DNA of 64,000 nt from Paludisphaera soli (GTDB lineage: Bacteria > Planctomycetota > Planctomycetia > Isosphaerales > Isosphaeraceae): positions 496,001 to 560,000 of the forward strand of contig NZ_JAALJI010000002.1 in NCBI RefSeq assembly GCF_011064595.1. The letters run 5' to 3'. Made by a program: the position numbers and the translations under genes. The notes beneath the pieces are model-generated. The model did not search any database. It worked only from the letters and a program-made list of their open reading frames with translations, and was not told the DNA's origin. This document shows, piece after piece, positions 838-58,208 of this stretch; the first letter of the stretch is position 1; each line of letters begins with the position of its first letter.

Positions 838-1034
838 CCTTCCCCCCTGGCGGGGGAAGGTGGCCCGAAGGGCCGGATGAGGGGGGGACGAGCGAGAAGA
901 CTATTGGAGATCCGACCGGTCTTCCCGAGCCCGTCGGCCGTGCGGGCCGAACTTCGAGATCCGCCGCTCCCCGCGAGCGTCCCCCCCTCATCTGACCGCT
1001 GCGCGGTCTGTCTTCCCCCGCCAGGGGGGAAGAC
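838..1034. repeat. MITE-like dispersed repeat with about 50-bp inverted ends (copy 1)
   Basis: The left end (838-890) is two adjacent hairpins, CCTTCCCCCCTGGCGGGGGAAGG and GGCCCGAAGGGCC-like, followed by GGATGAGGGGGGGACG. The right end (978-1034) is the same two-hairpin unit in inverted orientation, with the small hairpin changed to GACCGCTGCGCGGTC. The interior shares patches with copy 2 at 14443-14640. A further partial copy lies at 35655-35782. The rest of 607-1106 has no supported gene. The unit may be a non-autonomous mobile element or a family of bidirectional terminators. Confidence 0.8.
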
Positions 1035-13831: not shown

Positions 13832-14419
13832 ATGCGCGCCTTCGCCACGAACGCGAACCTGCTGGCCCCCGCCCTCGCCCTGACCCTCGCCGGGGCCGCC
13901 CTCTCCGCCCGGGCGGCCGACACCTACGCCGTGGACCCCGTGCACACCGCGGTCGTCTTCCGGATCGAGCACGGCGGGTTCAGCTGGACCTACGGACGGT
14001 TCAACGACGTCTCCGGCTCGTTCACCGTCGACGCGAACCACCCGGAGACCTCCCGGTTCGCGTTCACCGTCAAGGCCGACAGCCTGGACACCGGCAACGC
14101 CCAGCGCGAGGGGCACCTCAAGAGCCCGGACTTCTTCAACGTGAAGCAGTTCCCCGCCATCACCCTCAAGAGCACGTCCGTCTCCAAGGAGGCCGACGGC
14201 CTGAAGGTCACCGCCGACCTGACCCTCCACGGCGTCACGAAGCCCGTCACGTTCGTCCTCAAGGGGGGCAAGACCGGCGAATTCCCCAAGGGCGTCGCCC
14301 GCACCGGCTACTCCACCGAGCTGTCCATCAAGCGCTCCGAGTTCGGCATGGACAAGATGATCCCCGCCGCCGGCGACGAGGTGGACCTCATGATCAGCTT
14401 CGAGGGCACCAAGTCCTGA
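13832..14419 (+). CDS. Periplasmic YceI-family protein
   Basis: 195 residues. A Sec signal peptide covers about residues 1-29 (ends LSARAADTY). The mature part starts YAVDPVHTAVVFRIEH and continues through the conserved VTADLTLHGVTKPVTFVLK strand and the RSEFGMDK motif of the lipocalin-like YceI fold, which binds polyisoprenoids in known members. Length matches the family. Followed immediately by the MITE-like repeat, which may also serve as its terminator. Confidence 0.93.
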   Translation: MRAFATNANLLAPALALTLAGAALSARAADTYAVDPVHTAVVFRIEHGGFSWTYGRFNDVSGSFTVDANHPETSRFAFTVKADSLDTGNAQREGHLKSPDFFNVKQFPAITLKSTSVSKEADGLKVTADLTLHGVTKPVTFVLKGGKTGEFPKGVARTGYSTELSIKRSEFGMDKMIPAAGDEVDLMISFEGTKS

Positions 14420-14442: not shown

Positions 14443-14640
14443 CCTTCCCCCCCTGGCGGGGGAAGGTGGCCCGTCAGGGCCGGATGAGGGGGGGACGAGC
14501 GAGAGGGCCGACGGAGTTCCAGCAGGGCTCGCCGAGGCCGTCGGCCGCGCGGGCGTGGCTTCGAAATCCGAAGCCCTCGCGAGCGTCCCCCCCTCATCTG
14601 ACCGCTCCGCGATCTGTCTTCCCCCGCCAGGGGGGAAGAC
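14443..14640. repeat. MITE-like dispersed repeat (copy 2)
   Basis: 198 bp with the same inverted ends and partly similar interior as 838-1034. Both copies share GGATGAGGGGGGGACGAGCG at the left and CGAGCGTCCCCCCCTCATC at the right. The small hairpin at the left is GGCCCGTCAGGGCC here, against GGCCCGAAGGGCC in copy 1, so the loop differs while the stem is kept. Confidence 0.8.
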
Positions 14641-14682
14641 CTGGAATCGCCCTCGCTTCCTCGCGCCGTCCGCCTTGATGGT

Positions 14683-14730
14683 CCCCCTCATCCGGCCCTT
14701 CGGGCCACCTTCCCCCACCAGGGGGGAAGG
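14683..14730. repeat. Half unit of the dispersed repeat
   Basis: CCCCCTCATCCGGCCCTTCG followed by GGCCACCTTCCCCCACCAGG and GGGGAAGG: the two-hairpin end unit alone, in the orientation of the right end. It lies 30 nt upstream of the likely start of the membrane protein at 14760. Confidence 0.75.
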
Positions 14731-33082: not shown

Positions 33083-35629
33083 GTGAGCGGAGCGGCGATC
33101 GACATCAAGACGAGCATGACGACGGATCCGGCCTTGGAGGGCGCGCGGCCGGCGGGCACCAAGCCCGAGCTGCTGGCCCCGGCCGGCGACCGGGACTGCG
33201 TCCGCGCGGCGGTCGCCAACGGGGCGGACGCGGTCTACTTCGGCCTAAAGCGGCACAATGCGCGGATCCGCGCGGCCAACTTCGACGGCCTGGACCTGTC
33301 CGAGACGATGGCCTTCCTGCATCGCCACGGCGTCAAGGGGTACGTCACGCTCAACACCCTGATCTTCCCCGCCGAGCTGCCGGACGTCGAGGCGACGATC
33401 CGCGAGCTGAACGACGCCGGGGTCGACGCGGTCATCGTCCAGGACCTGGGCCTGACCCGCCTGATCCGCGAAGTCGCGCCCGGCCTGGAAATCCACGGCT
33501 CGACCCAGATGTCGATCACCAGCGAGGAGGGGGTCCGCCTGGCGGCCGAGCTGGGCTGCACGCGGGTGATCCTGGCCCGCGAGCTGTCGCTGGACGAGGT
33601 CCGCCGGGTCCGCGCGGAGTCCTCGATCCCGGTCGAGGTCTTCGTCCACGGCGCGCTCTGCGTGGCGTACTCCGGCCAGTGCCTGACCAGCGAGGCCCTC
33701 GGCGGCCGGTCGGCGAACCGGGGCGAGTGCGCTCAGGCCTGCCGGATGCCCTATCAGATCGTCTGCGACGGCGAGGACGTGGACCTGGGCAAGACCCAGT
33801 TCCTCCTCAGCCCGCAAGACCTGGCCGCCTTCGACTTGATCCCCGACTTGATCCGCGCCGGGATCGCCAGCCTGAAGATCGAGGGGCGGCTGAAGACGCC
33901 CGAGTACGTCGCCAACATCACCCGGCACTACCGGCGGGCGATCGACGAGGCCTGGGCCGGCCGGCCGGTCGCGTTCACGCCGGTCGAGGTCGAGGAGATG
34001 GAGATGTCCTTCTCCCGGGGCTTCAGCCACGGCTTCCTCGACGGCACCGACCACAAGATCCTGGTGCGCGGCGACTACGCCAAGAAGCGCGGCGTGCCGC
34101 TCGGCGCGATCGAGTCCGTGGGCCGCGCGGGGGTCCGCATGACGCTCGCCACCGGCCTCAAGCCGGGCGACGGCCTGGTCTTCGACGGCGACGACGAGGC
34201 CGGCGTCCCCGAGCAAGGAGGGCGGGTCTACGAGGTCCGCGCGGTCGACGACCGCGAGCCGGCCCGCGTCGAGCTGCGGTTCGGCCGCGACGACCTCGAC
34301 CTCGCCCGGCTCCGCCCCGGCCAGAAGGCCTGGAAGACCGACGACCCCGGCCTGACGGCGAAACTCCGGCGCTCGTTCGAGGGGCCGATCGACCGCGTCG
34401 TCGGCGTCGACGTCCGCGTCCGCGCGGCGGTCGGCGAGCCGCTCCGGGCCGAGGCCCGCACGACGACGGGCCACGTCGCCGTCGCGACCGGCGACGCCCC
34501 GCTGGCCCCCGCGCAGTCGCGGCCCGCCGACGAGGCCCTGCTCCGCGAGCAGCTCGGCCGGCTCGGCGGGACGACGTATCGGCTCGACGCGCTCGTCGCC
34601 GAGATCGAAGGCGCGCCGATGGTCCCCAAGAGCGTCCTCAACCAGCTCCGCCGCGAGCTGGCCGCCGCGCTCGACGCCTCCGCCGACGCCCCCCCCGCCC
34701 GGCCCACGGCCCCCGCCCCGGTCTTGCCGACCCTGCTGGCGCCGATCAAGGCCGAGGCCGACCGCCAGGCCCGCGAGCGTGGCGACGAGCCAGCTCGGCT
34801 CGCCGTCCTCTGCCGACGCACCGACCAGATCGCCGCCGCCGCGAGCGCCGGCGCAACCAGCATCTACGCCGACTACCAGGACGTGAAGGGCTACAAGGAG
34901 GCCGTCGCCGAGGCCCGCCGCCTGGGCCTGCTGATCCACGTCGCCACGCCCCGGATCGAGAAGCCGGCCGAGCGGAACCTGTTCAAGTTCCTGGCCAGGT
35001 CCGGGGCCGACGGCCTCCTCGTCCGCAACGCCGGGGGCCTGGCCTTCTGCGCCGAGGAGGGCGTGCCGTTCGTCGCCGACTTCTCGCTCAACGCCGCCAA
35101 CCCGCTGACCGTCGCCCTCTTCCGCGGGCGCGGGGCCGAGCGGGTCGCGGCCTCTTACGACCTGGACGCCACCCAGCTCTTCCAGCTGATCGACGCCACG
35201 CCGGCCGACTGGCTGGAGGTGGTCATCCATCAGCAGATCCCGATGTTCCACATGGAGCATTGCGTCTACTGCGCGTTCCTCTCGCCGGGGACCGACCACA
35301 CCAACTGCGGCCGGCCGTGCGACCACCACGACGTGAAGCTGCGGGACCGCGTGGGCAAGGAGCACCCGCTGAAGGCCGACGTCGGCTGCCGGAACACGCT
35401 GTTCAACGCCGTGCCCCAGACGGCGGCCGAGTTCCTCCCCCGGCTGATCGCGCGCGGCGTCCGCAACCTCCGCATCGAGTTCCTCGACGACGCCCCGGCG
35501 ACCGTCGGCCGCACCGTGACCCTCTACCGCGAGACCGCCGCCGGCCTCCGCGACGGCAAGACCCTCTGGCGCGAGCTGAAGGCCTCGAACCAGTACGGCG
35601 TCACCCGCGGCCCGCTGGCGGTGCTCTGA
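33083..35629 (+). CDS. U32 family peptidase / RlhA-like tRNA-rRNA hydroxylation protein
   Basis: Up to 848 residues. The N-terminal domain starts KPELLAPAGDRDCVRAAVAN and includes GALCVAYSGQCLTSEALGGR with RGECAQACRMPY, the cysteine-rich signature of U32 proteins. A DUF3656-like middle part (about 370-530) and a C-terminal domain with further cysteines (HMEHCVYCAFLS, NCGRPCDHHD) resemble RlhA, which is needed for hydroxylation of cytidine in 23S rRNA. Annotation as peptidase is historical. GTG 33083 and ATG 33117 are both possible starts; neither has a strong ribosome binding site. Confidence 0.88.
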   Translation: MSGAAIDIKTSMTTDPALEGARPAGTKPELLAPAGDRDCVRAAVANGADAVYFGLKRHNARIRAANFDGLDLSETMAFLHRHGVKGYVTLNTLIFPAELPDVEATIRELNDAGVDAVIVQDLGLTRLIREVAPGLEIHGSTQMSITSEEGVRLAAELGCTRVILARELSLDEVRRVRAESSIPVEVFVHGALCVAYSGQCLTSEALGGRSANRGECAQACRMPYQIVCDGEDVDLGKTQFLLSPQDLAAFDLIPDLIRAGIASLKIEGRLKTPEYVANITRHYRRAIDEAWAGRPVAFTPVEVEEMEMSFSRGFSHGFLDGTDHKILVRGDYAKKRGVPLGAIESVGRAGVRMTLATGLKPGDGLVFDGDDEAGVPEQGGRVYEVRAVDDREPARVELRFGRDDLDLARLRPGQKAWKTDDPGLTAKLRRSFEGPIDRVVGVDVRVRAAVGEPLRAEARTTTGHVAVATGDAPLAPAQSRPADEALLREQLGRLGGTTYRLDALVAEIEGAPMVPKSVLNQLRRELAAALDASADAPPARPTAPAPVLPTLLAPIKAEADRQARERGDEPARLAVLCRRTDQIAAAASAGATSIYADYQDVKGYKEAVAEARRLGLLIHVATPRIEKPAERNLFKFLARSGADGLLVRNAGGLAFCAEEGVPFVADFSLNAANPLTVALFRGRGAERVAASYDLDATQLFQLIDATPADWLEVVIHQQIPMFHMEHCVYCAFLSPGTDHTNCGRPCDHHDVKLRDRVGKEHPLKADVGCRNTLFNAVPQTAAEFLPRLIARGVRNLRIEFLDDAPATVGRTVTLYRETAAGLRDGKTLWRELKASNQYGVTRGPLAVL

Positions 35630-35654: not shown

Positions 35655-35782
35655 CCTTCCCACCTGGTGGGGGAAGGACGATCCGCGATGGCTGTCGTGA
35701 CAGGTACTCCGAACCGTTTCCGTGCTGGTCTTCCCCCTCATCCGGCCCTTCGGGCCACCTTCCCCCGCCAGGGGGGAAGGAC
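35655..35782. repeat. Dispersed repeat, short copy (copy 3)
   Basis: Left hairpin CCTTCCCACCTGGTGGGGGAAGG (35655-35677) and a right two-hairpin unit (35728-35782) with CCTCATCCGGCCCTTCGGG and CCGCCAGGGGGGAAGGAC. The interior is only about 50 nt and unrelated to copies 1 and 2, so this looks like a deletion derivative or two adjacent end units. It lies between the U32 gene and the CobA-HemD gene. Confidence 0.7.
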
Positions 35783-58009: not shown

Positions 58010-58096
58010 GGAGGGGTGCCAGAGTGGTCGATTGGGACGGTCTTGAAAACCGTAGAAGGGTCACACCTTCCGTGGGTTCGAATCCCACCCCCTCCG
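58010..58096 (+). tRNA. tRNA-Ser (anticodon UGA)
   Basis: 87 nt with acceptor GGAGGGG / CCCCTCC, anticodon loop CTTGAAA, a long variable arm and T arm GTGGG-TTCGAAT-CCCAC. Discriminator G58096; CCA not encoded. Confidence 0.95.
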
Positions 58097-58123: not shown

Positions 58124-58208
58124 GCCGGCGTGGCGGAACGGCAGACGCTGGGGACTTAAAATCCTCTGGGCGGGAACGCCCGTGTGGGTTCGAATCCCAC
58201 CGCCGGCA
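58124..58208 (+). tRNA. tRNA-Leu (anticodon UAA)
   Basis: 85 nt with acceptor GCCGGCG / CGCCGGC, anticodon loop CTTAAAA, long variable arm (GGGCGGGAACGCCC) and T arm GTGGG-TTCGAAT-CCCAC. Discriminator A58208; CCA not encoded. It starts 27 nt after tRNA-Ser. Its 3-prime end is the probable attachment site of the integrase element. Confidence 0.95.
58183..58208 (+). other. Probable attachment site (tRNA-Leu 3-prime end)
   Basis: The T arm and acceptor end of tRNA-Leu lie 96 nt before an integrase that reads away from the tRNA, the standard layout of a tRNA-integrated element. No second copy of this sequence was found in the remaining 5.8 kb, so the far att site would lie beyond the window. Confidence 0.4.

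Follow-up and report, generated by a model that had tools for sequence, protein, structure and literature searches.

The bacterial repeats closest in layout to the element described here are the REP, BIME and REPIN sequences. BIMEs are described in PMC6006769 as pairs of inverted REPs, the hairpin having a guide tetranucleotide on its 5' side, and REP-type repeats as species-specific and tied to Y1 transposases. CGTC-tagged REPs, in the text of Di Nocera et al. 2013 (PMC3733652), have one stem of 8-9 bp, a loop of 4-5 nt and mostly a CCA tail. The doublets found in Paludisphaera soli work like REP, BIME and REPIN sequences, yet they fall outside that family on the tests made, namely those of the tag and of the transposase, and their sequence is common to several phyla. 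No published description of the unit was found in the literature on MITE, REP and RIME elements or on repeats of Planctomycetes, Isosphaeraceae and Faecalibacterium, nor with the unit strings as queries, subscription literature lying mostly outside the scope of this search.

The window is the whole 64,000-nucleotide stretch of the Paludisphaera soli genome that was analysed (contig C110, 496001-560000). The first-pass annotation of its sequence had described a dispersed MITE-like element with two near-complete copies (838-1034 and 14443-14640), two partial copies (14683-14730 and 35655-35782) and two-hairpin ends in inverted orientation. All four are present: two full copies, each with its units found in '- +' order by a hidden Markov model (HMM), one single unit on the + strand (14683-14730), and one worn copy (35655-35780) that retains a left outer hairpin and an intact right unit.

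The full element is a doublet of 197 bp, in which two-hairpin units of 48-52 nt lie at both ends in inverted orientation, with a core between them. The order within a unit is the tag CCCCCTCATC, the small hairpin and then the larger CTTCCCC/GGGGAAG hairpin. Read 5' to 3', each unit has 11 unpaired nt (CCCCCTCATCN) followed by a small hairpin with a stem of 5-6 bp, which a single linker base separates from the outer hairpin CTTCCCCC-loop-GGGGGGAAG. In the full window copies the tags of both units point inwards to the core of 96-97 nt, and the small hairpin is GGCCC/GGGCC in the left unit and GACCGC/GCGGTC in the right unit.

The left unit of the first copy (838-885, - strand; HMM E-value 2.1e-14) is of type C, having a C after CATC, and combines a GGCCC/GGGCC small hairpin with an outer hairpin CCTTCCCCC/GGGGGAAGG. 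It is separated by a 97-nt core (886-982) from the right unit (983-1034, + strand; E-value 2.9e-10), which is of type T and has a GACCGC/GCGGTC small hairpin and an outer hairpin GTCTTCCCCC/GGGGGAAGAC. The two units fold with -15.9 and -18.0 kcal/mol, respectively, and none of 200 shuffles of either folded as well. The second full copy consists of a type C left unit (14443-14492, - strand), a 96-nt core (14493-14588) and a type T right unit (14589-14640, + strand), both units having been found by the HMM. The small hairpin of this right unit is broken by a mismatch, so that only 3 bp of it fold, and 2 of 200 shuffles fold equally well. The two small-hairpin types reported earlier are real, but the pairing of the second type is disrupted in this copy. 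In the third element the left unit is reduced to its outer hairpin and lacks the small one (35655-35677, - strand; read by eye and missed by the HMM), and the right unit (35733-35780, + strand, type C; E-value 2.1e-14) is intact.

The single unit at 14683-14730 is of type C and was also found by the HMM. When the 44 nt before it are included, it resembles the right half of an element from a second subfamily. A full element followed by 44 nt and then by another unit, with the common lead GTCCGCCTTGATGRT, occurs at three sites (14443-14730, C130:39363-39647 and C101:68024-68303); this recurrence would be explained by a composite element or, in the second subfamily, by insertion at a fixed point.

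The entire 197-nt strand can also form one long stem, from which the two small hairpins project as side arms. Folded as DNA it reaches -74.8 kcal/mol, whereas 200 dinucleotide-shuffled sequences average -44.7 (sd 3.5), giving a z of -8.6; folded as RNA it has a z of -8.2, and in both cases none of the 200 shuffles was as good. At the Rfam gathering score the element has no match in the window. The sole Rfam matches there are two adjacent tRNA genes on the + strand, at 58010-58096 and 58124-58208.

The element is dispersed through the genome, as had been proposed. The exact unit pattern occurs 155 times in 7.97 Mb and not once in a backwards-read control, two looser patterns give 187 and 191 matches, and at least 34 near-full copies were recorded by BLAST among the 40 scored of 268 candidates. 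A search of 822,822 bases with the HMM yielded 87 units, and the reversed sequence yielded none; these bases are the window plus five contigs picked for holding copies, and the unit density in them is not the genome average. The 87 units form 41 clusters, comprising 22 plain '- +' doublets, 11 larger groups and 8 single units, so that 33 of the 41 clusters hold two units or more. According to our own gene calls, no gene lies between the units of the doublets in these 822,822 bases. The clusters are mosaic and partly interleaved; nested insertions, examined as a route to the exact ends, were not decisive. At one site (C13:164590-164955) two elements seem to be interleaved in the order left A, left B, right A, right B, judged from core complementarity read by eye, an order which is not the product of simple insertion.

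The likeness to REP, BIME and REPIN sequences is extensive. A single-stranded tag precedes the hairpin unit, the units are joined into inverted doublets, and the copies are numerous, non-coding, intergenic and placed 3' of genes. The doublets also combine two end types, a feature reminiscent of E. coli REPs of types Y and Z. Unlike those repeats, however, the unit carries two hairpins, and its tag is CCCTCATC instead of GTAG; neither GTAG nor CGTC stands at the 5' foot, where CCCCCTCATCN precedes the hairpin. With the CGTC-tagged REPs, as described in the text of PMC3733652, the elements share head-to-head dimers, searches that found no dedicated transposase, and alphaproteobacteria among their hosts. 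In addition, 28 of 69 units here have CGT no more than 6 nt beyond the outer hairpin; at positions slightly further away the count is 6 of 69. The two hairpins and the CCCTCATC tag set the present unit apart from them, and CCCTCATC at a word start does not occur in the text of that paper; the two groups may overlap, the comparison having been made with the text of the paper.

The elements resemble bacterial MITEs (Nezha, RUP and others) in being about 200 bp long, non-coding and intergenic with inverted ends, but no target duplication was seen and no parent insertion sequence was found in the part of the genome covered by the search. The terminal inverted repeats enclose no coding capacity. 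In layout the elements correspond to a REP doublet (BIME or REPIN) rather than to an insertion sequence with an internal deletion.

To assess the constraint on the hairpins, 246 units were parsed, taken from this genome and from 112 named stretches. These units contain 131 distinct small-hairpin segments, whose best stem has a mean length of 5.2 bp, compared with 3.7 bp after shuffling of the letters. A stem of at least 5 bp is formed by 73% of the distinct segments and by 18% of the shuffled ones, leaving 27% of the segments without such a stem. There are 46 different stem strands. Pairing in the small hairpin is therefore mostly retained as its sequence changes, in agreement with the first-pass annotation, with one window copy broken.

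The elements are probably non-autonomous mobile palindromic doublets, which an enzyme acting in trans would copy to new intergenic sites by reading a folded single strand. The doublet would be inserted between genes, where the visible copies lie mostly just downstream of stop codons, and the copying would be done by an enzyme supplied from elsewhere. This enzyme is proposed to recognise the unit in folded, single-stranded form because the small hairpin keeps its pairing and not its sequence, while the unpaired tag and the outer stem keep their sequence.

The doublets might instead be MITEs belonging to a DDE-type insertion sequence not yet discovered, which would recognise the inverted ends in double-stranded form. 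Their terminal inverted repeats of about 50 bp, their length of about 200 bp, their lack of coding sequence and their dispersal all suit this explanation, but a reader of double-stranded DNA would give the small hairpin no reason to remain paired while its sequence changes, and 8 of the 41 clusters are single units. No target-site duplication was seen by eye in the 17 of 22 plain doublets with printable flanks, where the ends are fuzzy enough for a 2-bp duplication to be possible. Seven wider unit pairs at the named loci, 300-3500 bp apart, might have held an autonomous partner. In the five that were opened (all but L128, at 364 bp, and L130, at 420 bp) inspection by eye revealed ordinary genes or nothing convincing and no transposase; the wide pair in contig C79 has no predicted gene inside. 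This explanation is accordingly considered improbable. The name MITE is not supported in its strict sense, the more so as no tested transposase family is present in all of the 22 unit-bearing genomes discussed below, and the target duplications sought in following up the annotation were not seen.

The outer hairpin and the tag vary together. The base pair that closes the outer hairpin is C-G in 179, G-C in 32 and T-A in 22 of the 246 units (mutual information 0.87, compared with at most 0.08 in 500 shuffles), and tracks the unpaired base after CATC, which is C, A or T, respectively. Set against the base after GAAG, the same tag base gives the combinations C-G in 176, A-C in 31 and T-A in 21 of the 246 units. 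The A type occurs in the loci grouped as 'Clostridia and other' and the T type in planctomycetes, so the coupling may reflect few independent events. Among 42 close '- +' pairs at named loci, many of them from the same few genomes, 27 combine a C type with another type and 15 consist of two C types; pairs of two non-C types are absent (P 0.0012 if pairing were random).

Genes were predicted with a codon model built for this analysis on the 822,822 bases. The three window elements lie after stop codons, as the claim that copies sit at gene ends had implied. The first copy is 72 nt from the stop codon of a TPR protein gene (1107-2303, - strand), the second begins 23 nt after that of a YceI-like gene (13832-14419, + strand), and the third begins 25 nt after that of a peptidase U32 gene (33083-35629, + strand). 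Three of the 41 clusters are at a sequence edge, with no called gene on one side. None of the remaining 38 has its midpoint inside a predicted gene. The outcomes named in the annotation as refuting it, namely a lack of further copies or copies confined to coding or vertically inherited segments, did not arise. The 38 clusters occupy 22 tandem, 13 convergent and 3 divergent gaps, where 21.7, 4.7 and 11.5 are expected from gap length; convergent gaps are over-represented (P 0.0002) and divergent gaps under-represented (P 0.0012). In tandem gaps 18 of 22 clusters start within 60 bp past the upstream stop codon (P 0.003). Gene 3' ends would thus be favoured either by insertion or by selection.

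The location after stop codons and in convergent gaps is also what would be expected if the elements were bidirectional terminators or stabilisers of mRNA 3' ends that selection maintains and gene conversion or transfer spreads. A T-rich stretch follows 32% of 130 'Clostridia and other' units, compared with 10% of random places, and an ordinary-looking hairpin, judged by eye, stands at the orthologous site of a rhizobial doublet in Rhizobium leguminosarum plasmids. In this genome, however, a T-rich stretch follows only 2% of 57 units (1% at random), in Planctomycetales bacterium 71-10 it follows none of 26, and orthologous genes manage without any element. This explanation has little probability. 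A terminator role is plausible in some Clostridia and unlikely in this genome, where the element is probably near neutral to its host and at most a transcript-end hairpin.

Evidence for mobility of the doublets comes from the 14443 and 35655 sites, which were compared with those of five congeners (G001-G005). The intergene holding the 14443 copy is 340 bp long here and about 7, 19 and 13 bp long in G005, G004 and G003. In G001 the same site has a 124-bp gap with tag remnants only, which could mean that an old element was lost, and in G002 it carries another unit. The 35655 site is a short intergene without units in G001, G002 and G004, and in G005 and G003 the same junction holds different elements that are their own. 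Each of the two window sites thus lacks the element in three congeners, in line with what the annotation had proposed looking for in sister strains, although the flanks of the congeners are too diverged for an empty site at base resolution.

The cores differ in length between species. In this genome (G000) 21 of 33 are 95-100 nt long; in other species, whose cores were chosen from BLAST listings, they measure 82-84 nt in G004, 54-59 nt in G005, 19-45 nt in G003, 70-106 nt in G001 and 69-96 nt in G002. Of 69 cores measuring 30 nt or more, 62 have their nearest neighbour among the cores of their own genome, compared with 39-49 of 69 when the letters were shuffled and the lengths kept, which shows that core length explains much of this similarity. 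When candidates were limited to those within 3 nt in length, the figures were 51 of 52 and 35-38 of 52, respectively; cores resemble those of the same genome beyond the effect of length alone. The cores of G003, G004 and G005 are clearly closer within their own genomes, with mean identities of 0.71, 0.80 and 0.68. Mean identity within G000 is 0.63, no higher than that between G000 and G002 (0.64) or G004 (0.62), which indicates that G000 holds several partly shared subfamilies and speaks against a simple one-burst picture.

If the doublets were classic REP or BIME elements, a resident Y1 HUH transposase (RAYT, or TnpA-REP) would mobilise them. The hairpin unit with its 5' single-stranded tag, the inverted doublets with two end types and the position 3' of genes conform to such a layout, and Y1 (PF01797) genes are present in 16 of 22 unit-bearing genomes. 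In the other six no Y1 match was found, despite the number of their units (G002, 106; G441, 59; G444, 65; G445, 18; G446, 148; G448, 44). Moreover, 28 of 61 Y1 places were inspected over up to 1.5 kb per side, 14 of them in the genus and 14 from the 22 unit-bearing genomes. In none is the Y1 gene flanked by units, as it is in REP systems; 27 lack units altogether, and at the remaining one a unit lies at a distance of more than 1.2 kb. The CCCTCATC tag, which is not GTAG, argues in the same direction. Y1 was consequently rejected as the general mobiliser, and the classic REP explanation is given a low probability.

Two other transposase families were rejected in the same role, IS91-like Y2 being present in only 2 and IS110 in only 10 of the 22 genomes. 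Five unit-bearing genomes (G002, G441, G445, G446 and G448) lack all three families, to which the transposase test was confined. The Pfam scan of genes next to units covered 79 places. Once repeats and genes crossing a stretch boundary were set aside, 71 distinct genes remained, each contained in a single stretch; no transposase is among the 25 most frequent of the 135 families, a cut-off that a rare one may fall below.

That the unit is shared with other phyla lay beyond what the window sequence alone could reveal. Within Planctomycetota the exact pattern is patchy, being found in 10 of 392 genomes, four of which have more than one unit. A degenerate pattern of the unit matched at least 112 stretches in a collection of species genomes, including many Clostridia (Gemmiger, Pseudoflavonifractor, Pseudobutyrivibrio, Butyrivibrio) as well as Rhizobiales, Xanthomonadales and Planctomycetales bacterium 71-10; a few of these matches look like chance (for example L088 and L134). 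The unit sequence is common to Planctomycetota, Clostridia, Rhizobiales and Xanthomonadales. The densest of the 22 counted genomes is that of Clostridia bacterium C.B3_4 (G449), with 118 exact units in 1.8 Mb and a single Y1 match. Planctomyces sp. SH-PL62 and Gemmiger formicilis are likewise rich in units. In another genus of the family (G016, L036/C97 and C40) unit-like matches recur every ~135 or 264 bp as tandem arrays.

BLAST of the 48-nt unit against plasmids gave 266 records, 243 of them at 80-90% identity, mostly from Rhizobium, Sinorhizobium, Azospirillum and Shinella. The rhizobial form of the unit may be RIME (rhizobial intergenic mosaic element; Osteras et al. 1995), the unit matching many plasmids of Rhizobium, Sinorhizobium and Shinella. 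A doublet of ~120 bp (L222) is found in Rhizobium phaseoli at a sugar-transport operon, between the gene of a sugar-binding protein and that of its permease; its tags point outwards, whereas those of the planctomycete doublets point inwards. It is missing from the orthologous site in the R. leguminosarum plasmids examined. In plasmids of R. leguminosarum and R. ruizarguesonis (L226-L228 and L233, at ~528-628) a seemingly plain G+C-rich hairpin, read by eye, replaces the doublet. The flanks diverge inside the intergene, and these plasmids gave no empty site at base resolution.

It is conceivable, though on balance doubtful, that a single phylum-crossing system is responsible, in which one unrecognised enzyme, other than Y1, Y2 and IS110, mobilises the unit in Planctomycetota, Pseudomonadota and Clostridia through the folded, single-stranded form of that unit. 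The ends of the doublet would then be distinguished by a three-way code, comparable to the guide and cleavage bases of IS200/IS605, in which an unpaired C, A or T following CATC goes with C-G, G-C or T-A, respectively, as the pair that closes the outer hairpin. A unit much of whose primary sequence is conserved between Clostridia and planctomycetes, and which occurs in genomes without Y1, points to a missing mobilising enzyme. The conserved tag, the small hairpin that is kept in its pairing only and the coupled bases predict what that enzyme would require for binding.
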